From positions 1 to 64,000 of the forward strand of contig JACRDD010000017.1 in assembly GCA_016218685.1 (NCBI GenBank): a stretch of DNA of 64,000 bases. The letters are read 5' to 3'. The notes below the pieces were generated by a model. It did no database searches, was not told where the DNA came from, and saw only the letters and a program-made list of their open reading frames with translations. The number at the start of each line of letters is the position of its first letter. Position 1 is the first letter of the stretch. Shown piece by piece: positions 4,976-12,872 of the stretch. The translations under genes were made by a program, and so were the position numbers. Origin of the DNA: Desulfobacterales bacterium. GTDB lineage: Bacteria > Desulfobacterota > Desulfobacteria > Desulfobacterales > Desulfosarcinaceae.

Positions 4976-7114
4976 TTACGAGCGCTTGGCGGCGTGTTTT
5001 TTCTTGGCTGCCGGCGGCGCTTCATCGGCTTTGGCGGGCGCTACGGTGACAAAGGTGTCGTGCAGGGCCGGGCTGCCGCCCACCGGGTCGGTGAGGCAGG
5101 CCTGCAGCACGCTGTCGGAAACGCCGCGGTTGAAGGTGCGCGCGGCCAGGCGGGCCTCGTGGCCGAAACCGTGCACCATGAAGACCGCTTCGGGATGAAT
5201 CAGGTCGGTGACAAAGGCCTTGATCTGGCCCTGGCCCTGGGCCGAGGTGACCAAAACCGTCTGCCCGTCCTTGATCCCCAGGGCCGCGGCCCGCCGGGTG
5301 TGAATCCACAAGAGGTTTTCAGGGTACAGCTCGTTCAGATAGGGATTGTTCTGCGTGGAGACATGGGTGTGGGCCGCCACCCGCCCCACCACCAGCCGGA
5401 AGCGGTCCCCCTCGGGCCGTTGCATGGCCGCGTAGGGCGGGAACGAGGCAAAGCCGGCTTTTTCCAGCAGGGAGGAGCGCAGCTCGATCTTGCCCGAGGG
5501 GGTCTTGAGCTTCAGGCCGTCCAGGCGGTTCCAGAAGAGCTGCTCCTTGGCATAGGCCACGAACCCCTTGGCGTCGAAATCCTGGCGCGTGAACCCGGTG
5601 GGTTCGAGCTGCCAGTCCACCAGTTCGTCCATGGTGGTATAGGGGAAGTACTTTTCGATGCCCATGCGCTCAGCCAACTGGCGCATGATGATGGCGTACT
5701 CGCGCGTGTCGTGAATCGGCGGGATGGCCTGGGGCCGCAGGAAGATCTGGGGCTTCAAGCCATTGGCCTGCTGCACGCAGTCGGTGCGTTCGAAGAAGGT
5801 GGATTCGGGCAGCACCACGTCGGCATACCAGGCCGAGTCGCTGAAGTTAACGTCGATGGCCACGATCAGGTCGAGCTTTGCGAAGGCCTGCTTGGTGCGG
5901 TGGGTGTCGGGGATCGATTTGAGCGCGTCGAAGCGGTTGATGAACAGGGCCTTCAGCGGGTAGGGCGTTTGCGTCAGGATGGCATCCACCAGGCTCTGGG
6001 GCACCCCATGGGCCGGATCGGGCAGGGGCAGCTTGGCCGTGCCCACCTGGTCGGCGCGCGGTTCGCTGACCTTGGGCAGCTCCTGGTCGGTGAGCTTGCG
6101 CGCCGGCTTGCGATCGACGGCGCCGGGGCCTTTTTTGAAAAAGAGCCCGCCGGGGGCTTCGATGGACCCCATGAGGATGTTGAGGATCAGCAGGGAGCGG
6201 CGCAGGTAGATTTCGTTGACATGATGGGCGCCTCGGTAGCCGAAATGAAAGATCACCGAGGGTTTGTCCCGGCTCACTTCCCGGGCCAGGGCGGTGATCT
6301 CCGCGGCCCGGATGCCGGTTTCGGCTTCGGCCCACGCGGGGGTATAGGGCCGCACGAAATCGCGCAGTTCGGGCAGGCCCTCTACCCAGCGCTCCACGAA
6401 GGCCGCGTCGTAGAGCCGCTCTTCCAGAATCACGTGCATCAAAGCGTAGTTGAGCGCCAGGTCGGTGCCCGGCCGGATCATCCAGTAGCGGTGGGCTTTG
6501 GTGGCCGTGACCGTGACCCGCGGATCGATGTAGGTCATCTTGGCGCCGTTGGACAGGGCGGTCATCAGGTTGTTCACTTCGCGCACGGCCACGGCCTCGA
6601 AGATGTTGCGCCCATATAAAATGATGTGCTTGGTTTTGTCGTACTGCATGCCCATGTCGGCGTCGGTATAGCCGAACAGGCTGCGGCAGGCGGTGTTGAC
6701 CGAGCCCTTGCACAGGGCGTCGTGGGTCACATGGTTGGGCGAACCGATGGCCTTTAAAAAGGTTTTGCTCACATGGGTGGCCAGGTTGGCGCGCTCCATG
6801 AGGGCCACGCTGCGGCCGCCATGGGTGTCCACGACTTTTTTGAGCCCCTCGGCTATATAATCCAGGGCTTCGTCCCAGGAAGCCTTGCGCCACTGGCCGG
6901 CGCCGCGTTCGCCCACCCGGATCAGCGGGGTTTGCAAGCGTTGCTCGTCATACAAAAACGAGGTGCCGGCCGCGCCTTTGGGGCACAGGCTGCCCTCCAT
7001 GCCGGGCACGTGGGGATTGCCCTGGACCCACCGGACCTGGCCGTTCTCCACTTCCACCTGGATGGGGCAGCGCACGGAGCACATGAAACACATCGTATAA
7101 AGAGTTTTTTTCAC
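4976..7114 (-). CDS. Molybdopterin oxidoreductase, catalytic subunit (PhsA/PsrA-like), no Tat signal
   Basis: A 712-residue bis-MGD enzyme of the DMSO reductase superfamily. The N-terminus carries the [4Fe-4S] motif C9-x2-C12-x3-C16-x27-C44. The probable molybdenum or tungsten ligand is C135 in a THDALCKGSVN segment, which places it with the Cys-ligated thiosulfate, polysulfide and arsenate reductase branch rather than the Ser or Sec enzymes. The C-terminal dinucleotide-binding domain includes a THVSTQNNPYLNEL segment. GTG 7114 is preferred because GGGGGAGG sits 6 nt upstream; starting there leaves no twin-arginine leader, so the enzyme should be cytoplasmic. The substrate cannot be read from sequence. 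It heads a probable operon with the ferredoxin, flavoprotein and two small genes, behind a candidate sigma-54 promoter at 7232-7247. Confidence 0.88.
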   Translation of the reverse strand: MKKTLYTMCFMCSVRCPIQVEVENGQVRWVQGNPHVPGMEGSLCPKGAAGTSFLYDEQRLQTPLIRVGERGAGQWRKASWDEALDYIAEGLKKVVDTHGGRSVALMERANLATHVSKTFLKAIGSPNHVTHDALCKGSVNTACRSLFGYTDADMGMQYDKTKHIILYGRNIFEAVAVREVNNLMTALSNGAKMTYIDPRVTVTATKAHRYWMIRPGTDLALNYALMHVILEERLYDAAFVERWVEGLPELRDFVRPYTPAWAEAETGIRAAEITALAREVSRDKPSVIFHFGYRGAHHVNEIYLRRSLLILNILMGSIEAPGGLFFKKGPGAVDRKPARKLTDQELPKVSEPRADQVGTAKLPLPDPAHGVPQSLVDAILTQTPYPLKALFINRFDALKSIPDTHRTKQAFAKLDLIVAIDVNFSDSAWYADVVLPESTFFERTDCVQQANGLKPQIFLRPQAIPPIHDTREYAIIMRQLAERMGIEKYFPYTTMDELVDWQLEPTGFTRQDFDAKGFVAYAKEQLFWNRLDGLKLKTPSGKIELRSSLLEKAGFASFPPYAAMQRPEGDRFRLVVGRVAAHTHVSTQNNPYLNELYPENLLWIHTRRAAALGIKDGQTVLVTSAQGQGQIKAFVTDLIHPEAVFMVHGFGHEARLAARTFNRGVSDSVLQACLTDPVGGSPALHDTFVTVAPAKADEAPPAAKKKHAAKRS

Positions 7115-7231
7115 TCGAATCCTCCCCCGGTTAGGCATGCATGCCGGAACGGTTGCCATGGCCGCCCAGGCCGGCCTGGCTCTTCACATCGCGGACCGGT
7201 TGCCTGGTTCTGTTGCGATCCGCGATGATTT

Positions 7232-7247
7232 AGCAATATCCATACCA
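7232..7247 (-). promoter_or_regulatory. Candidate sigma-54 promoter for the molybdopterin oxidoreductase operon
   Basis: Read on the minus strand the site is TGGTATG, four bases, TTGCT. The invariant GG and GC are exactly 10 bases apart, and the -12 element is perfect. The -24 element differs from TGGCACG at two positions. Transcription would start near 7221, about 107 nt before the GTG start. It lies in the same gap as an even better sigma-54 site facing the other way. Confidence 0.5.
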
Positions 7248-7360
7248 TCCAAAGGGACGGCTGGATAGCTGAAATTCTGGCGAACCGGTCAAGAGCATCC
7301 AATATTTCCAAGGAGATGGAAAAGATGGGCCTCCAGCGGAACCCTCCGGGCCGGGACCGG

Positions 7361-7406
7361 ATGCAATAATAAATTTGCATGCCATCAAAAACCAGCTTAT
7401 TTGCAT
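7361..7406. promoter_or_regulatory. Candidate activator binding site between the divergent sigma-54 promoters
   Basis: An inverted repeat ATGCAA-N8-TTGCAT occupies 7361-7380 and a further TTGCAT half-site lies at 7401-7406. The inverted repeat is about 130 bp from the minus-strand -12 element and about 225 bp from the plus-strand -24 element, distances usual for sigma-54 enhancers. The NtrC-family regulator encoded at 11478-12872 is the obvious candidate ligand. Repeats are visible; binding is inference. The rest of 7115-7716 shows no gene. Confidence 0.3.
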
Positions 7407-7604
7407 CCTTGCGGAATCAAATCCTTTTTGCCATAGTGCCGCCATGTGCCATATTTTAATTGCGCCGCCGCTTTGATGCGCTGGCCGGCCCTAAGGGCGG
7501 GGAACCGCTCCACGCGAAGCGCTTCTGTCAGGCAACCTATTGGAACTATGAGTAATAATTCGGTGGCAGGCGTGGAGACCACTTGGCTCTGATTTTAAGG
7601 CCCC

Positions 7605-7621
7605 TTGGCATACCGATTGCT
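7605..7621 (+). promoter_or_regulatory. Sigma-54 promoter for the TauE-like/two-component operon
   Basis: The site reads TTGGCATA, CCGA, TTGCT. It has the invariant GG (7607-7608) and GC (7619-7620) separated by 10 bases, and only small departures from the TGGCACG-N4-TTGCW consensus. Transcription should begin near 7632, about 85 nt before the transporter start. The operon it serves ends with a sigma-54-dependent activator, so positive autoregulation is likely. Confidence 0.7.
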
Positions 7622-7716
7622 GTGTATCCCGCATCGGTTTGAAAGCCGACCATGGGCAAGTGCCTTGCGCGGTGTCCCAGCGGCGGCCTCACTTACTAAC
7701 TTTTTGGAGGATGAAT

Positions 7717-8865
7717 ATGTCCCGTAAATTTACGTTCTGTCTCATCATGCTTCTGCTGGCGGGCGTCCTGGTCGGCGCCTGGGGTGCGGCCACACCGGTT
7801 CAGGCGGGCAAGCTGGAAGAGGCCATTGCCAAAGCGCCCCAGGGGACGGGCAAGGGTCAGATCGACCCTGCGGCACCAGCCGGCTATCTCGGCATTCCCG
7901 GTGGCAAGCAGGTCAACCTGGTGCTGGCCTTCTTCTGGGCTCTGTGGGTGGGCTGGGTTTTTTCCACCGTGGGCGCCTTCGGCGGCGTCATGGCTGGTGT
8001 CGGCCACATCTCGGTCTTCGGCCTGGGGGCCTATGCCAAGACTTTCAAGGACACCGCGCCGGAGCTCAATAAGTTCATCACCGACAGCGTCCGCGTCTCC
8101 AACCAGTGGCTGGTGGGTTTGTCGGCCCTGGTCTCCAGCGTCAACTACGGCAAGCAAAAACGGCTGATCGTGCCCTTGGGTCTTTCGCTGGGCCTGGGCT
8201 CCCTTTTGGCCGCCTTCCTGGTGGTCTACACCACCATGGGCAAGGTCAAATTTTCCGAGTACCAGGGCTGGTTCGGCCTGATCGTCTTCATCATCGGCGG
8301 TTTCATGATTTATGAAATGACCCCCCGGGGCCAGGCCTCCAAGAAAAAGTCCAAGGAGGCGGTCAAGGCGTTCGAAGCCGCCGTCAAGCAAAAGGGCGAC
8401 ATTACCCAGCAGGGCGTCAAGACCAACAAGTTCACCCTGACCCATGCCGAGATCTCCTTTTTCGGCCAGACCTTCACCTTCAACCCTATCTGGGCTTTTG
8501 TGGGCGGTTTCTTCATCAGCGCCATCTCTTCGTTCATCGGCGTGGGCGGCGGCTTCCTGTACGTGCCCTTCCTGACCAGCGTGGTGGGCCTGCCCATGTT
8601 CGTGGCCGCCGGCACCTCGGCCCTGGCGGTGTTGATCAGCATGATTCTGTCGATCTTCAACTTCATGATCAAGGGCGTCACCGTGTACTGGATCTTCATC
8701 GGTGTCGAACTGGTGGGCATCTTCATCGGCTCCATGATCGGGCCGCGCACCGGCAAGTACATCCCGGAAAAGGGCCTGAAATGGTTCTTCATCGCCTTGG
8801 CCTGCTACGTCGGTCTGGATTACACGTTGAAGGGCTTTTTCAATATCACGCTCATCGGCGGATAG
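7717..8865 (+). CDS. TauE/SafE-type transporter (sulfite/organosulfonate exporter family)
   Basis: A 382-residue multi-spanning membrane protein. A cleavable-looking leader (hydrophobic residues 8-25, then a TPVQAGK cleavage region) is followed by two blocks of membrane helices. The blocks are separated by a soluble loop of about 60 residues with a lysine-rich KKKSKEAVKAFEAAVKQK segment. The second block carries the glycine-rich family motif ISSFIGVGGGFLYVPFL. TauE/SafE proteins move sulfite, sulfonates or other small anions; the substrate here is unknown. ATG 7717 is chosen over ATG 7711 because GGAGG (7706-7710) touches the earlier codon but is 6 nt from the later one. It is the first gene of the sigma-54-controlled operon and lies divergent to a PhsA-like oxidoreductase, which hints at sulfur oxyanion handling. 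Confidence 0.85.
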   Translation: MSRKFTFCLIMLLLAGVLVGAWGAATPVQAGKLEEAIAKAPQGTGKGQIDPAAPAGYLGIPGGKQVNLVLAFFWALWVGWVFSTVGAFGGVMAGVGHISVFGLGAYAKTFKDTAPELNKFITDSVRVSNQWLVGLSALVSSVNYGKQKRLIVPLGLSLGLGSLLAAFLVVYTTMGKVKFSEYQGWFGLIVFIIGGFMIYEMTPRGQASKKKSKEAVKAFEAAVKQKGDITQQGVKTNKFTLTHAEISFFGQTFTFNPIWAFVGGFFISAISSFIGVGGGFLYVPFLTSVVGLPMFVAAGTSALAVLISMILSIFNFMIKGVTVYWIFIGVELVGIFIGSMIGPRTGKYIPEKGLKWFFIALACYVGLDYTLKGFFNITLIGG

Positions 8866-8874
8866 TCCCCATGC

Positions 8875-8910
8875 AACGGCCGGGCCCCTGTTTCGGCGGG
8901 CCCGGCCGTT
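8875..8910 (+). terminator. Strong intra-operon hairpin, no T-tract
   Basis: A perfect 13-bp GC-rich stem (8875-8887 with 8898-8910) closes a 10-nt loop 9 bp after the transporter stop. No run of T follows, so full intrinsic termination is doubtful. It more likely stabilises the upstream message or reduces expression of the regulatory genes relative to the transporter. Confidence 0.55.
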
Positions 8911-8943
8911 CCGAACCAGGTACGCCAGGGAAATATAAAGTTG

Positions 8944-9495
8944 ATGGACCAAATGATCGTCCAATTCAAGCAGGCGGCCGACGCGCTGCTGATCGCGCCC
9001 TTCCGGCTGCCCCAGGATGCCTTGTTCGGGTTTTTGCTCGGCGCTTTCTGCCTGGCCATGCTCTGTGTGGTGCTGGGCGAATTGATGCTTTCGGTCGCCA
9101 TCCGCTTCAATCAAAAGCACTTGCAGAACCTGAGGACCGAGATCTCCCAGCACGAGCGGCTCAGCATGCAGGCTTACGAATTCGGCGACCGCGACGGGTA
9201 CAGGGCGCTCAACAAGCAGGCCAACGATGCCTGGGGCCGCCATTTCTTCACCATGGCGGCCTACTCGGCGGGCATGCTCTGGCCGGTGCCCTTTGCCCTG
9301 GCTTGGCTGCACAGCCGCTTCGCGGAGGTCGCCTTCGAGCTGGCCTGGCCCCTGTCGTTGGTCGTCGGCCAGACCGTGGGGTATCCCTTCATCTTCATAC
9401 CGATGTATATCCTGGCCCGCATTCTCTTCGGGCACCTGCGCCGCTGGCTGCCCTATTTCAAAGGGGTGCAGCGCCGATTAGACGAACAGTCCTGA
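8944..9495 (+). CDS. Small membrane protein of unknown function
   Basis: A 183-residue protein with one hydrophobic helix near residues 25-50, a charged helical middle (about 55-100, with QKHLQNLRTEISQHERL) and two or three C-terminal helices (about 105-175). The layout of membrane helix, coiled-coil-like middle and further helices recalls DUF106/EMC3-like proteins, but I see no decisive motif. ATG 8944 has only a weak upstream AGGGA; TTG 8941 is an alternative. It sits between the transporter and the sensor kinase of the same sigma-54 operon, so it may be a transporter partner or part of the sensing apparatus. Confidence 0.75.
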   Translation: MDQMIVQFKQAADALLIAPFRLPQDALFGFLLGAFCLAMLCVVLGELMLSVAIRFNQKHLQNLRTEISQHERLSMQAYEFGDRDGYRALNKQANDAWGRHFFTMAAYSAGMLWPVPFALAWLHSRFAEVAFELAWPLSLVVGQTVGYPFIFIPMYILARILFGHLRRWLPYFKGVQRRLDEQS

Positions 9496-9519
9496 ACGCT
9501 CGCCCATAAAGGAGCAACG

Positions 9520-9969
9520 TTGGTCGTGAAGTTACTGCTGATCAGCCTCATGATGGCACTGTTGTGCCGGCCGTCAGCAGCCTGGGCCATTCAGGCTCAT
9601 GGCGGCGTGGAAGGGGTCTATGTCCACCAGATGGCCCACCTCTTTTTCGCCTTCTCCATGGGGTTGCTCATCTACTGGCTGCGCCGGCGGCGTCTGGTTT
9701 CCCTGAAGGGGTGGCGTTATATCCAGTATGCCGCTCTCTGGTTCATCGCCTGGAACGGCGATGCCTTCCTGGGCCATTGGCTGGAAGAGCAGTCGGGGCT
9801 GATGGACAGCCAGCGCATCGGCCTGATGCACATCAGCCTGAACATGGCCCAGGGCTTTGAGTGGCTGGCCCCGGTGTACTATCTGGTCAAGCTGGATCAC
9901 CTGCTGTGCGTGCCGGCCATGCTTTGCCTCTTTCTGGGGCTGCGTCGGCTGCTGCGGGAGCCCTCATGA
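9520..9969 (+). CDS. Small membrane protein with leader peptide and several histidines
   Basis: A 149-residue protein. A hydrophobic leader ends at SAAWA (about residue 23), followed by three or four membrane helices. Six histidines fall in or next to helices (H27, H36, H40, H86, H104, H127), including a HGGVEGVYVHQMAH cluster, so heme or metal binding is possible. I do not recognise a family. The TTG start at 9520 is preferred because AAAGGAG is 5 nt upstream; the later GTG 9526 would be 11 nt away. Its stop overlaps the start of the sensor kinase gene (ATGA), so the two are translationally coupled, which suggests a shared sensing function. Confidence 0.72.
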   Translation: MVVKLLLISLMMALLCRPSAAWAIQAHGGVEGVYVHQMAHLFFAFSMGLLIYWLRRRRLVSLKGWRYIQYAALWFIAWNGDAFLGHWLEEQSGLMDSQRIGLMHISLNMAQGFEWLAPVYYLVKLDHLLCVPAMLCLFLGLRRLLREPS

Positions 9970-11474
9970 ACGTCACTTTTCTACCTATCTGGATCGTGGA
10001 CGTGGGCGGCTCGGTGCTGATGATCGTGCTGGCCTTCGTCTGCGTGCGCTATGTCCGGCGGCTGCGGCGGCGCGATACCGAAAATATCGTCTGGGCCTAC
10101 ATGCTTTGGGTCTGCCTGGCCCTGGCCCTGTTTGCGGTATCGCGTTCGGTGGGCCACATCGTCAAGCAGATGCTGATCATCAGCGGCCACCAGGCCACCT
10201 GGGCCCTGATCAAACCCTACAGCGGCGCCATCAACTCCTTTGCCTTCGTCATGGTGGGGGCCGTGACCCTCTTCTTCGAGCGCACCTGGACGCTTTACGA
10301 GAGCATCGTCCAGGGCCGCGCGGCCCTGGAGGTGGCCCACGGCGAGTTGTCCCATTTGAACCAGAACCTGGAACGGCTGGTGGATGAGCGCAGCAAGGCC
10401 CTGGCGCGCAGCGAGCACAAGTACCAGCGCATCTTCCAGGAGTCCAAGGACATGCTGCTGGTCACCGACCGCCAGGGCCGCATCCAGGATCTCAATCCGG
10501 CCGGCCGGATGCTGTTGGGCCTGGAGGCCATCGGATCTCGGAATCCCTCGGCGGTGTGCTTTGCCGAGTTCCTAAGCCTGGAGGATTGGCAGACCATCAC
10601 GCGCAGCATCGCCGCCCAGGGCTTTATTTCCAGCGCCGAAATGGATCTGAAGACCGGCGACGGCGGACGGCGACGCGTGCTGCTCAGCGGCGGCCTGGTG
10701 GCCGGCGAGGGCGAGCCCGATACGCTGCACTTTCTGGTCAAGGATATCGAGCAGCAGCACATCGCCCGCGAGCAGATGGCCCAGGCCGACAAGCTGGCCA
10801 GCATCGGCGCCTTTTCTTCGGGCATCGCCCACGAGATCAACAACCCCCTGGGGATCATTCTGGGGTATACCCAGTTGATGCTGCGCAACGAAGAAAAGGC
10901 GTCCGCCCGCGCGGCCGACTTGAAGACCATCGAAAAACAGGTGCGCCACTGCAAATCCATCGTGGAAGATCTGCTCAACTTCGCCCGCACCTCGGCGCCC
11001 AAGAAGGAGCTGTGCGATGTCCACGCGGTCATCGAGGATGTGCTCCATTTCTTCCGGCAGCACGCCAAGCTGGAAAGCATCCGCATCGACACCAACTACG
11101 ATGGCCGCATCTGCCGGCTGCTGCTGGACGAAAAGAAGATCAAGCAGGTCCTGCTCAATCTGCTGATGAACGCCCACTACGCCGTGGGGCGGGAAGGCGC
11201 GATCGCCACCGCCACCGAACTTTTGCCCAACGGGCAGCAAGCCTGTATCAAGGTGCGCGACAGCGGCCCGGGCATAGAACCCAAGAATCTGTCGCGCATC
11301 TTTGATCCCTTCTTTACCACCAAGCCCACGGGCCAGGGCACCGGCCTGGGGCTGTCGGTGAGTTACGGGATCATCAAAAATCACGGCGGCGAGATCTGGG
11401 CCGAAAGTATTCCGGGCCAGGGCGCCACCTTCATCATCGTTCTGCCCTTGCCGGCGGATCAGCGCGGGAGATAA
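9966..11474 (+). CDS. Membrane sensor histidine kinase (PAS-HisKA-HATPase)
   Basis: A 502-residue sensor kinase. Three membrane helices (about 12-30, 42-60 and 88-106) form a sensor region with no large periplasmic domain. They are followed by a coiled coil (about 115-150), a PAS domain (about 150-262), a HisKA domain with phosphoacceptor H289 in SSGIAHEINNPLG, and a HATPase domain with the NLLMNAHYAV N-box and DSGPGI. The FFTTKPTGQGTGLGLSVSYGI segment is typical of the NtrB-like class that partners sigma-54 activators. It is translationally coupled to the upstream membrane protein and lies 3 bp before the NtrC-type regulator, its evident partner. The signal is unknown; the membrane-embedded sensor and the histidine-rich neighbour suggest a redox or membrane signal. 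Confidence 0.93.
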   Translation: MNVTFLPIWIVDVGGSVLMIVLAFVCVRYVRRLRRRDTENIVWAYMLWVCLALALFAVSRSVGHIVKQMLIISGHQATWALIKPYSGAINSFAFVMVGAVTLFFERTWTLYESIVQGRAALEVAHGELSHLNQNLERLVDERSKALARSEHKYQRIFQESKDMLLVTDRQGRIQDLNPAGRMLLGLEAIGSRNPSAVCFAEFLSLEDWQTITRSIAAQGFISSAEMDLKTGDGGRRRVLLSGGLVAGEGEPDTLHFLVKDIEQQHIAREQMAQADKLASIGAFSSGIAHEINNPLGIILGYTQLMLRNEEKASARAADLKTIEKQVRHCKSIVEDLLNFARTSAPKKELCDVHAVIEDVLHFFRQHAKLESIRIDTNYDGRICRLLLDEKKIKQVLLNLLMNAHYAVGREGAIATATELLPNGQQACIKVRDSGPGIEPKNLSRIFDPFFTTKPTGQGTGLGLSVSYGIIKNHGGEIWAESIPGQGATFIIVLPLPADQRGR

Positions 11475-11477
11475 GCC

Positions 11478-12872
11478 ATGCCCCCCACCCTTCTGATCGT
11501 GGACGACGAACCGGATATGCTCCAACTGCTCAAACGCAGCCTGGAGCCCGATCTGCACTGCGAGGTGTGCACGGCCGATTCGGGCGAATCCGCGCTGCAC
11601 CTGCTGGCCAATACTTCCTTCGATCTGGTGCTGGCCGACATCAAGATGCCCGGCATGGACGGTCTGGCGCTGCTGGAAGTGATCCGGCGCAACCACCCCG
11701 GGCTGACCGTGGTAATGATGACCGCTTACGGCCACATCGACTTGGCCGTGGAGGCCATGCGCGCCGGGGCCTACGACTTCATCACCAAGCCCTTCGAGCA
11801 CGACACCCTGGTGCTGCGTCTGGAAAAAGCCCTGGAACGCCAGCGCCTGATCCAGGAGAACCAGCGCCTGCAGCGCCAATGCAACGGCGGCGAGGAGAGT
11901 TTCCAGCGCATGATCGGCAAAAGCCCGGCCATGCAGCGGGTGTTCGAAACCGTCCAGATGGTGGCCAAAAACGATCTCACTGTGCTCATCACCGGCGAAT
12001 CGGGCACCGGCAAGGATCTCACCGCCCGGGCCGTGCACCGGCTGAGCCACCGGCAGAAGGGACCCTTCGTGGCCGTCAACTGCCCCACGGTGCCGGAAAA
12101 CATCCTGGAAAGCGAGCTGTTCGGCTACAAGAAGGGCGCCTTCACCCACGCCACCCAGAACCGTACCGGACTTTTCCAGGAAGCCCACGGCGGCACGATC
12201 TTCCTGGACGAGATCGGCGACATCAGCCCGAGCATTCAAACCAAGCTGCTGCGCGTGTTGCAGGAAAAGGAGATCAAGCCCCTGGGCGATGTGCATTCGA
12301 TCCAGGTGGATGTGCGCATCGTGGCCTCCACCAATCAGGATTTGAAAGCCAAGATCCGGCGCCAGGAGTTCCGCGAAGATTTCTTCTACCGCCTCAACGT
12401 GCTGCCCATCCACCTGCCGCCGCTGCGCGAGCGTGTGCAAGACATCCCGCTGCTGGCCGATCATCTGCTGGAAAAGCACTGCCGGGAGCTGAACAAGCCG
12501 CGCAAGTCCATCTCCGCCGAGTTGATGGGGATTTTTCAGGAGCGCTACTGGGAGGGCAACATCCGCGAACTGGAAAACGTCATCGTGCAGGGCATTCTCT
12601 TCTCTCCGGAAGAGACGATCCAGCCCCGGGACGTGGGCTGGCATGCGGAACAGGCAAGGGCCGCGATCCTGGAGACCGGCCTCAAAGGCCTCGCCTACAA
12701 GGCCGCCAAGGAGAAGAACTTACAGCACTTCAACCACGCCTACATCGGCCACGTCCTGACCCAGTATCAGGGCAACGTCTCCCAGGCCGCCCGCTTCTGC
12801 GGCCTGGAGCGCCAGGCGTTGCAGCAGATCATGCGGCGCTACGGCATCCGGGCGGAGAAGTTCAGGACCTGA
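11478..12872 (+). CDS. NtrC-family sigma-54-dependent response regulator
   Basis: A 464-residue activator. The receiver domain (1-118) has the acidic pocket DDE at 9-11, phosphoacceptor D54 and K104. The AAA+ domain (about 140-375) has Walker A GESGTGKD at 173-180 and Walker B TIFLDE at about 240-245, and ends in a Fis-type helix-turn-helix (about 420-460, YQGNVSQAARFCGLERQALQQ). The sigma-54-contacting loop reads GAFTHA at 220-225 rather than the usual GAFTGA. Such variants occur in some family members, but the change may alter contact with sigma-54. Its target is probably the pair of sigma-54 promoters at 7232-7247 and 7605-7621, the latter heading its own operon. Confidence 0.93.
   Translation: MPPTLLIVDDEPDMLQLLKRSLEPDLHCEVCTADSGESALHLLANTSFDLVLADIKMPGMDGLALLEVIRRNHPGLTVVMMTAYGHIDLAVEAMRAGAYDFITKPFEHDTLVLRLEKALERQRLIQENQRLQRQCNGGEESFQRMIGKSPAMQRVFETVQMVAKNDLTVLITGESGTGKDLTARAVHRLSHRQKGPFVAVNCPTVPENILESELFGYKKGAFTHATQNRTGLFQEAHGGTIFLDEIGDISPSIQTKLLRVLQEKEIKPLGDVHSIQVDVRIVASTNQDLKAKIRRQEFREDFFYRLNVLPIHLPPLRERVQDIPLLADHLLEKHCRELNKPRKSISAELMGIFQERYWEGNIRELENVIVQGILFSPEETIQPRDVGWHAEQARAAILETGLKGLAYKAAKEKNLQHFNHAYIGHVLTQYQGNVSQAARFCGLERQALQQIMRRYGIRAEKFRT

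Follow-up and report, generated by a model that had tools for sequence, protein, structure and literature searches.

The genes by which sulfate reducers use thiosulfate are not settled: PhsAB of strain G20 is of only slight importance for growth on thiosulfate, and DsrAB is probably the other thiosulfate reductase (Price 2014). In Desulfovibrio, a 'nitrate cluster' (DVU0251-DVU0245 / Dde_0597-0605) has been proposed to import thiosulfate; isolated mutants of DVU0246, 0247, 0250 and 0251 are nitrate-resistant, while the DVU0245 mutant is not, and G20 mutants are mildly sick on thiosulfate according to unpublished data quoted there (Korte 2014, PMC4001038). For a TSUP transporter clade that is present in 25 of 44 sulfate reducers, a role as a primary sulfate transporter in some of them has been considered possible (Marietou 2018, PMC5840216). 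Here we analyse a divergent locus from a Desulfobacterales bacterium (GCA_016218685.1, contig JACRDD010000017.1) in which genes for a molybdopterin oxidoreductase (MOLY) with a ferredoxin-type (FER) and a GltD/Nfn-like (GLTD) subunit face a TauE/TSUP-family transporter (TauE), two small membrane proteins (M1 and M2), a histidine kinase (HK) and a sigma-54 activator (RR). The stretch analysed, referred to as the window, comprises the first 64 kb of the 92.8-kb contig; the genome (3.8 Mb) is 64.6% complete. The TauE transporter and MOLY genes very likely form one local sigma-54 regulon of the M2-kinase-regulator set, as had been proposed from the window alone, because paired conserved sigma-54 sites, a common dyad and linkage through rearrangements all point in this direction.

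Paired sigma-54 promoters and a common dyad

The original prediction had placed two sigma-54 promoters facing away from each other between MOLY and TauE. A loose scan limited to the window (at most two mismatches) gave 29 matches compared to 40.7 expected, which is not above chance, and the case for the promoters was therefore built on genome counts, on footprinting in the gaps of relatives and on the dyad described below. In the whole genome, the pattern TGGYAYN5TTGCW occurs at 46 places, compared to eight for the reversed pattern, and two of the 46 lie in this gap, pointing apart. Of 39 divergent, non-redundant gaps of relatives, 32 had exact sites in both directions (34 had one towards TauE, 33 one towards the opposite gene), compared to 36 of 7187 control windows from the same loci, a count that is an upper bound because some control windows may partly overlap the gap; as close relatives are counted singly, the 39 gaps are not independent of one another. 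The divergent pair, with the GG-N10-GC core of sigma-54 promoters present here and kept in relatives, is thus more firmly established than had been claimed. The position of the minus-strand site (7232-7247) was correct, whereas the plus-strand site spans 7606-7621 rather than 7605-7621.

One or both exact sites are missing from seven gaps (L076, L079, L090, L117, L159, L184 and L185; L-numbers label loci from other genomes that were compared with the window locus), three of which contain near matches, towards TauE in L076 and L079 and towards MOLY in L117. The two Desulfofundulus gaps among them (L159 and L184, Bacillota) run to a separate FER-like gene and contain no exact sigma-54 site, though TauE-M1 and MOLY remain together in these loci. 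The sites are also retained where the first gene is FER instead of MOLY, for example in L078 and L083-L086.

Alignment of ten gaps brought out a repeated TGCA...TGCA element that was absent from the original prediction, a TGCA-N10-TGCA dyad located between the two sigma-54 sites. With at most one mismatch, 61 copies were found in 27 gaps of 500-800 bases, compared to 10.3 expected from first-order simulations. The spacer of 10 was the most frequent; twelve other TGCA spacers within 4-16 gave 8-37 copies in the same gaps, those at spacer 14 (25 copies) and spacer 15 (37 copies) possibly stemming from neighbouring copies. In 11 of the 27 gaps a second dyad copy occurs at a distance of 86-89 bp from another, and in the bacterium's own genome the AT-rich form of the dyad (at most two mismatches) was found at five places (six rows; control 2), of which two are in this gap, 85 bp apart. 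For a combined count of sites and dyads, 22 loci of rearranged gene order were picked by hand, 11 with and 11 without M2. An exact sigma-54 site together with the dyad preceded TauE or M2 in seven of the 11 loci with M2 (L093, L111, L137, L139, L157, L158 and L180), compared to none of the 11 without it, one of which has the site alone and three the dyad alone.

RR has the receiver, the AAA+ domain with a GAFTGA-type loop and the helix-turn-helix of NtrC-type activators, and may be the protein that binds the dyad. Its loop reads GAFTHA, as in 49 of 62 rows of regulators, a set that contains duplicate genomes, the others reading GAFTNA (6) or GAFTGA (5), with no loop found in two. GAFTHA was considered as an unusual feature and dropped, since it is already published as a variant of GAFTGA.

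The molybdoenzyme, the transporter and the small membrane proteins

The cytoplasmic, PhsA/PsrA-like character that the original prediction had assigned to MOLY holds by profile scores, start position and tree. MOLY matches Thermus 2vpw (PDB) across nearly its full length (E 2.4e-117), a protein that we take to be a polysulfide reductase and that is labelled thiosulfate reductase in its entry; with the NCBIfam PhsA model (NF012032) it scores 594 bits, below the curated cut-off of 694. Scores with PhsA/PsrA are far higher than with formate dehydrogenase, and an identity of MOLY as formate dehydrogenase was rejected on this basis. While plasmid PhsA starts with a twin-arginine stretch, the twin-arginine (Tat) signal of PhsA was not found for MOLY in the 41 rows examined. 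In 28 of these relatives, the first cysteine is preceded by no more than 25 residues even if the start furthest upstream is used, too few to accommodate such a signal; in the other 13, the open frame extends further upstream (31-126, three of them with an arginine pair) before what is apparently the same conserved start. A tree of 38 rows (those of L222, L227 and L230 taken by tblastn), including plasmid PhsA and three paralogues from the own genome, united 34 rows in one group at 98/97, with plasmid PhsA beside it at 99/98 and apart from the paralogues; PhsA and L222 have long branches. The group consists of a subgroup containing the window (99/98) and a second one (99/94; for example L080, L133 and L234-L236), and both are represented in TauE-M1 cassettes. 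By these comparisons MOLY is a predicted cytoplasmic branch beside PhsA and belongs to the PhsA/PsrA clade in the wider sense. The best solved relatives of GLTD are a 9bov chain labelled molybdopterin oxidoreductase, 8oh5 (labelled formate dehydrogenase-O major subunit), NfnA and the small chains of glutamate synthase, and with such a GltD/Nfn-like subunit NAD(P)H is a plausible electron supply.

TauE is a TSUP member by its match to Pfam PF01925 (81.4 bits, above the cut-off of 32.6), while M1 and M2 match no Pfam family at E<=0.001. The predicted structure of M1 (pLDDT 92) has human TMCO1 as its best fold match (E 0.038, probability 0.97, TM 0.41), which is weak by E-value; the search gave nothing at E<=0.001, ABC exporters followed closely by E-value with lower probability, and a second TMCO1 entry reached TM 0.54 at E 0.53. 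Pfam EMC3_TMCO1 weakly matches eight of 64 M1 rows (best E 0.0063), and PDB profiles gave no match to M1. M2 (pLDDT 90) begins in a signal-like manner, and its fold search gave no usable match. Q25, H27, E31, H36, Q37, H40, H86, D126, H127 and C130 are fully or almost fully conserved across 32 M2 rows, and in the loci inspected the M2 gene adjoins that of the kinase; M2 may be the sensor.

Loci L095-L102 have, instead of TauE-M1, a distant TauE (about 570 residues) whose N-terminal part looks periplasmic; it lies beside M2-HK-RR and MOLY-FER-GLTD and is in most cases accompanied by an M1-like protein and a further small protein of the membrane. The M1-like partner (L095-L101; six rows) is remotely similar to M1 by profile (hhalign pairwise E 2.9e-5, probability 74%), and in L101 it shares one frame of 352 residues with M2.

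Linkage and distribution across genomes

M1 is present in 29 of 60 relatives. Among 40 wide regions, which were chosen because of M1 or MOLY matches, TauE closely faces MOLY in 14 and a distant TauE (about 30%) is found in an equivalent setting in eight; apart from two classes weighed below, the remaining five have other spacing (L082 and L091), are cut short (L103) or contain only 54% paralogues (L104 and L105). In the latter two, the 54%-identical MOLY and FER adjoin genes that by eye resemble an Rnf operon. Same-strand arrangements occur as well: TauE-M1-MOLY-FER-GLTD are all co-oriented in Desulfofundulus (L159 and L184), Desulfovirgula L164 has TauE-M1-MOLY and the start of FER before the locus ends, and the order TauE-M1-MOLY-FER is kept in all eight same-strand cases examined (L234-L241), with a GLTD match in five.

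In a sample of 297 genomes drawn from the phylum (MOLY threshold E<=1e-160), M1 was found in 51, MOLY in 72 and both in 38. M1 and MOLY lie within 10 kb of each other in 26 of the 38, with 13 pairs divergent, ten on the same strand with M1 first and three with MOLY first; since at most three candidates were scored per genome and one place was used, linkage could be undercounted. Among 28 genomes with a close enzyme (at least 57% identity), M1 is found in 21 and lies within 10 kb in 19 of these. Relatives that keep one operon without the other at no unusual rate, an outcome named in advance as speaking against one regulon, were thus not what the sample revealed. M1 is confined to genomes with dsrA (51 of 51, with dsrA above cut-off in 143 of 297; hypergeometric 2e-19, uncorrected for phylogeny), as is MOLY in 70 of 72 cases (6e-25, likewise uncorrected). 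A scan of a genome collection gave 184 M1 relatives; of the best 80 of these 184, 64 have 'Desulf' in their title, the other titles naming Deltaproteobacteria, Proteobacteria, Syntrophobacteraceae, Nitrospiraceae, Peptococcaceae or plain bacterium.

The neighbourhoods of the cassette vary. Several of the loci L077, L083-L086 and L099-L101 have acetyl-CoA synthase- or corrinoid methyltransferase-like genes nearby (Pfam on L077), and several have a CBS-domain protein and a 2Fe-2S/4Fe-4S protein after GLTD. In L156, L163, L167 and L175, a DUF1847-type protein (assigned by Pfam on L167 only), TauE and M1 are directly followed by genes that by eye resemble those of energy-converting hydrogenases. 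A rhodanese gene close to some Desulfosarcina-type loci was too weak an observation to use. No sat, apr or dsr genes were seen by eye beside TauE-M1 among cluster representatives, no systematic search having been made.

The genes of the window locus are as originally described, with refined starts for MOLY, GLTD, TauE and the kinase (Table 1); the interval first assigned to the locus (4976-12872) does not include all of it, as the minus-strand genes extend to its left. An integron integrase gene lies at the extreme contig start (364-1647, plus strand; TIGR02249, 400 bits, above cut-off), and any cassette array belonging to it would sit past the end of the contig. The integrase is also present in L066, a near relative (98% over 177 residues), likewise close to a contig end.

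Table 1. Features of the divergent locus, in window coordinates.
Feature	Position	Strand	Remarks
MOLY, PhsA/PsrA-like molybdopterin oxidoreductase, 712 residues	4976..7114	-	GTG start at 7114, common to relatives; without Tat signal
FER, 4Fe-4S ferredoxin-type subunit, 171 residues	4449..4964	-	Pfam Fer4_11; closest NCBIfam model of DmsB type, under cut-off
GLTD, GltD/Nfn-like FAD-NAD(P) subunit with C-terminal Fe-S, 719 residues	2281..4440	-
Small conserved protein, ~70 residues	2049..2261	-	comes after GLTD in several relatives
Sigma-54 site facing MOLY, TGGTATGGATATTGCT	7232..7247	-	conserved in relatives
Sigma-54 site facing TauE, TGGCATACCGATTGCT	7606..7621	+	conserved in relatives
Enhancer-like dyad 1, TGCAATAATAAATTTGCA	7362..7379	no strand
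Weaker dyad 2, TGCCATATTTTAATTGCG	7447..7464	no strand	two mismatches; 85 bp from dyad 1
TauE/TSUP-family membrane transporter	~7711..8865	+	Pfam TauE, E 1e-22
M1, conserved partner of TauE	8941..9495	+	predicted fold nearest TMCO1 (weak)
M2, small membrane protein in which His, Gln, Glu and Cys residues are conserved	9520..9969	+	sensor candidate
HK, histidine kinase with PAS, 502 residues	9966..11474	+	ATG overlaps stop of M2
RR, sigma-54 activator (receiver, AAA+, Fis-type HTH)	11478..12872	+	GAFTHA variant

Proposed function and relation to known systems

A joint function of the transporter and the molybdoenzyme is likely, and thiosulfate, though unproven, is the best-supported candidate substrate. 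That the locus is one local sigma-54 regulon which imports a sulfur oxyanion, most likely thiosulfate, and reduces it in the cytoplasm is a reading whose chances we consider evenly balanced; shared control, conserved linkage, cytoplasmic location and the restriction to dsrA genomes come from sequence comparison, to which we add by inference the dyad-binding protein, the substrate, the direction of transport, the electron donor and the signal. M2 and the kinase would sense an extracytoplasmic sulfur or redox signal, upon which RR would bind the paired TGCA-N10-TGCA dyads and fire both promoters. TauE and its partner M1 would import the anion, and a cytoplasmic MOLY-FER-GLTD complex would reduce it to sulfide and sulfite with electrons from NAD(P)H or ferredoxin, the sulfite passing on to DsrAB. 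More tentatively, the set could amount to a thiosulfate reductase that works in the cytoplasm on NAD(P)H/ferredoxin electrons and has a transporter (including an Oxa1-like partner) and a one-locus regulator of its own, and hence to a second, import-coupled route of thiosulfate respiration or disproportionation in sulfate reducers, a possibility that we would still call doubtful.

Several observations weigh against a thiosulfate-importing regulon. The link of TauE-M1 to the Desulfovibrio nitrate cluster rests on gene order and annotation; the thiosulfate defect reported for that cluster is mild and unpublished, and pooled DVU0250 mutants, at the position of M1, have a fitness of -5.82 in nitrate, though the isolated mutant is resistant (Korte 2014, PMC4001038). 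The exact site together with the dyad was not found in four of the 11 rearranged loci with M2 (L130, L131, L133 and L183). Among the 40 wide regions, TauE faces FER with the MOLY gene missing in six and TauE-M1 is without a close MOLY nearby in seven; TauE-M1 without MOLY was also found in many other loci, M1 and MOLY are far apart or on separate contigs in 12 of the 38 genomes with both, and for seven of the 28 genomes that contain a close enzyme no match to M1 was obtained. The statistics of co-occurrence with dsrA ignore phylogeny. Finally, TSUP proteins can export.

It is conceivable, if on the unlikely side, that TauE-M1 transports sulfate or sulfur anions in general and that the substrate of MOLY is a different sulfur species, for instance polysulfide or tetrathionate, the two being under shared control because both respond to the state of sulfur acceptors. 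The best solved relative of MOLY, Thermus 2vpw, would fit such a role as the polysulfide reductase that we presume it to be, though it is labelled thiosulfate reductase, and so would the many loci that contain TauE-M1 with no MOLY in view. The TSUP clade regarded as a possible primary sulfate transporter (Marietou 2018, PMC5840216) points the same way, but the tight arrangement of TauE-M1 with MOLY recurs in distant groups, which speaks for a single substrate route. Considerably less probable is an export by TauE of sulfite that is freed by MOLY or other reactions, which would protect the cell. The classical Pfam annotation of TauE agrees with this, and MOLY acting on thiosulfate would indeed free sulfite, which, however, is a substrate of DsrAB; moreover, loss of the matching Desulfovibrio cluster relieves nitrate inhibition, which its authors read as entry being barred (Korte 2014, PMC4001038).

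The nitrate phenotype of that same cluster could also suggest detoxification, MOLY reducing a toxic oxyanion (nitrate, selenate, chlorate or arsenate) that enters via the transporter, but the intact cluster sensitises rather than protects (PMC4001038), and we regard this as very unlikely. MOLY is almost limited to dsrA genomes, which likewise speaks against such a role. Related molybdenum enzymes are generally known to reduce ions of this kind. We give hardly any credence to MOLY as a formate dehydrogenase or other carbon enzyme linked to the Wood-Ljungdahl pathway: acetyl-CoA synthase-like genes are close by in Desulfosarcina-type loci, but the cassette is also kept without them and MOLY scores far better with PhsA/PsrA. 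For many sulfate reducers, the module supplies specific candidate genes with which uptake, reduction and control can be put to the test, and it bears on the question of why loss of the Desulfovibrio nitrate cluster confers nitrate resistance.

That no named system has this composition, as the original prediction stated, stands for the whole set in the literature searched (judged by titles and abstract openings), where it was not found described, but not for the pair of TauE and a small membrane protein, which matches the Desulfovibrio nitrate cluster by gene order. This cluster has, like the window, TauE, an M1-sized protein and a signalling set, but in place of M2 and the sigma-54 activator it contains a phosphonate-binding-type protein, a 119-residue receiver-only regulator and PPDK-like and phosphatase proteins; 'molybdopterin' is missing from the main text of the report (Korte 2014, PMC4001038). 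A locus of an uncultured Desulfovibrio (L185) contains TauE, M1, a small frame, a phosphonate-binding-type protein, a kinase, a 119-residue receiver, a PPDK-like protein and a phosphatase (families assigned through Pfam of the L170 members), in an order and with an annotation equal to those of DVU0251-DVU0245, and its TauE and M1 are members of the families described here.

TSUP clade B (Marietou 2018, PMC5840216) comprises TSUP proteins across sulfate-reducing phyla and resembles the window's TauE at the level of the TSUP family, but is tied to no molybdoenzyme in the passages cited. Nine sigma-54 operons of D. vulgaris have TSUP/PSE transporters, as in the window's locus; in the corresponding passages of that report no paired gap with a TGCA dyad or molybdoenzyme is described, and DVU0251 is unnamed in its main text (Kazakov 2015, PMC4641369). 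The 'Moly cluster' of sulfur disproportionators (PMC12998232), with whose name our label MOLY is unconnected, likewise includes, in Desulfobacterota, a molybdopterin oxidoreductase that belongs to the wider family; that enzyme, however, is described as likely extracellular and as having a Tat chaperone. With the PhsABC thiosulfate reductase and the Thermus 2vpw complex, finally, the window's set has the catalytic-subunit family and a ferredoxin-type subunit in common; it differs from them in its MOLY, which has no Tat signal, and in the GltD/Nfn-like subunit that comes next, and the genes of the cassette were not found to include a quinone-reactive membrane subunit. The component parts are of known kinds; their combination was not encountered in the literature searched.

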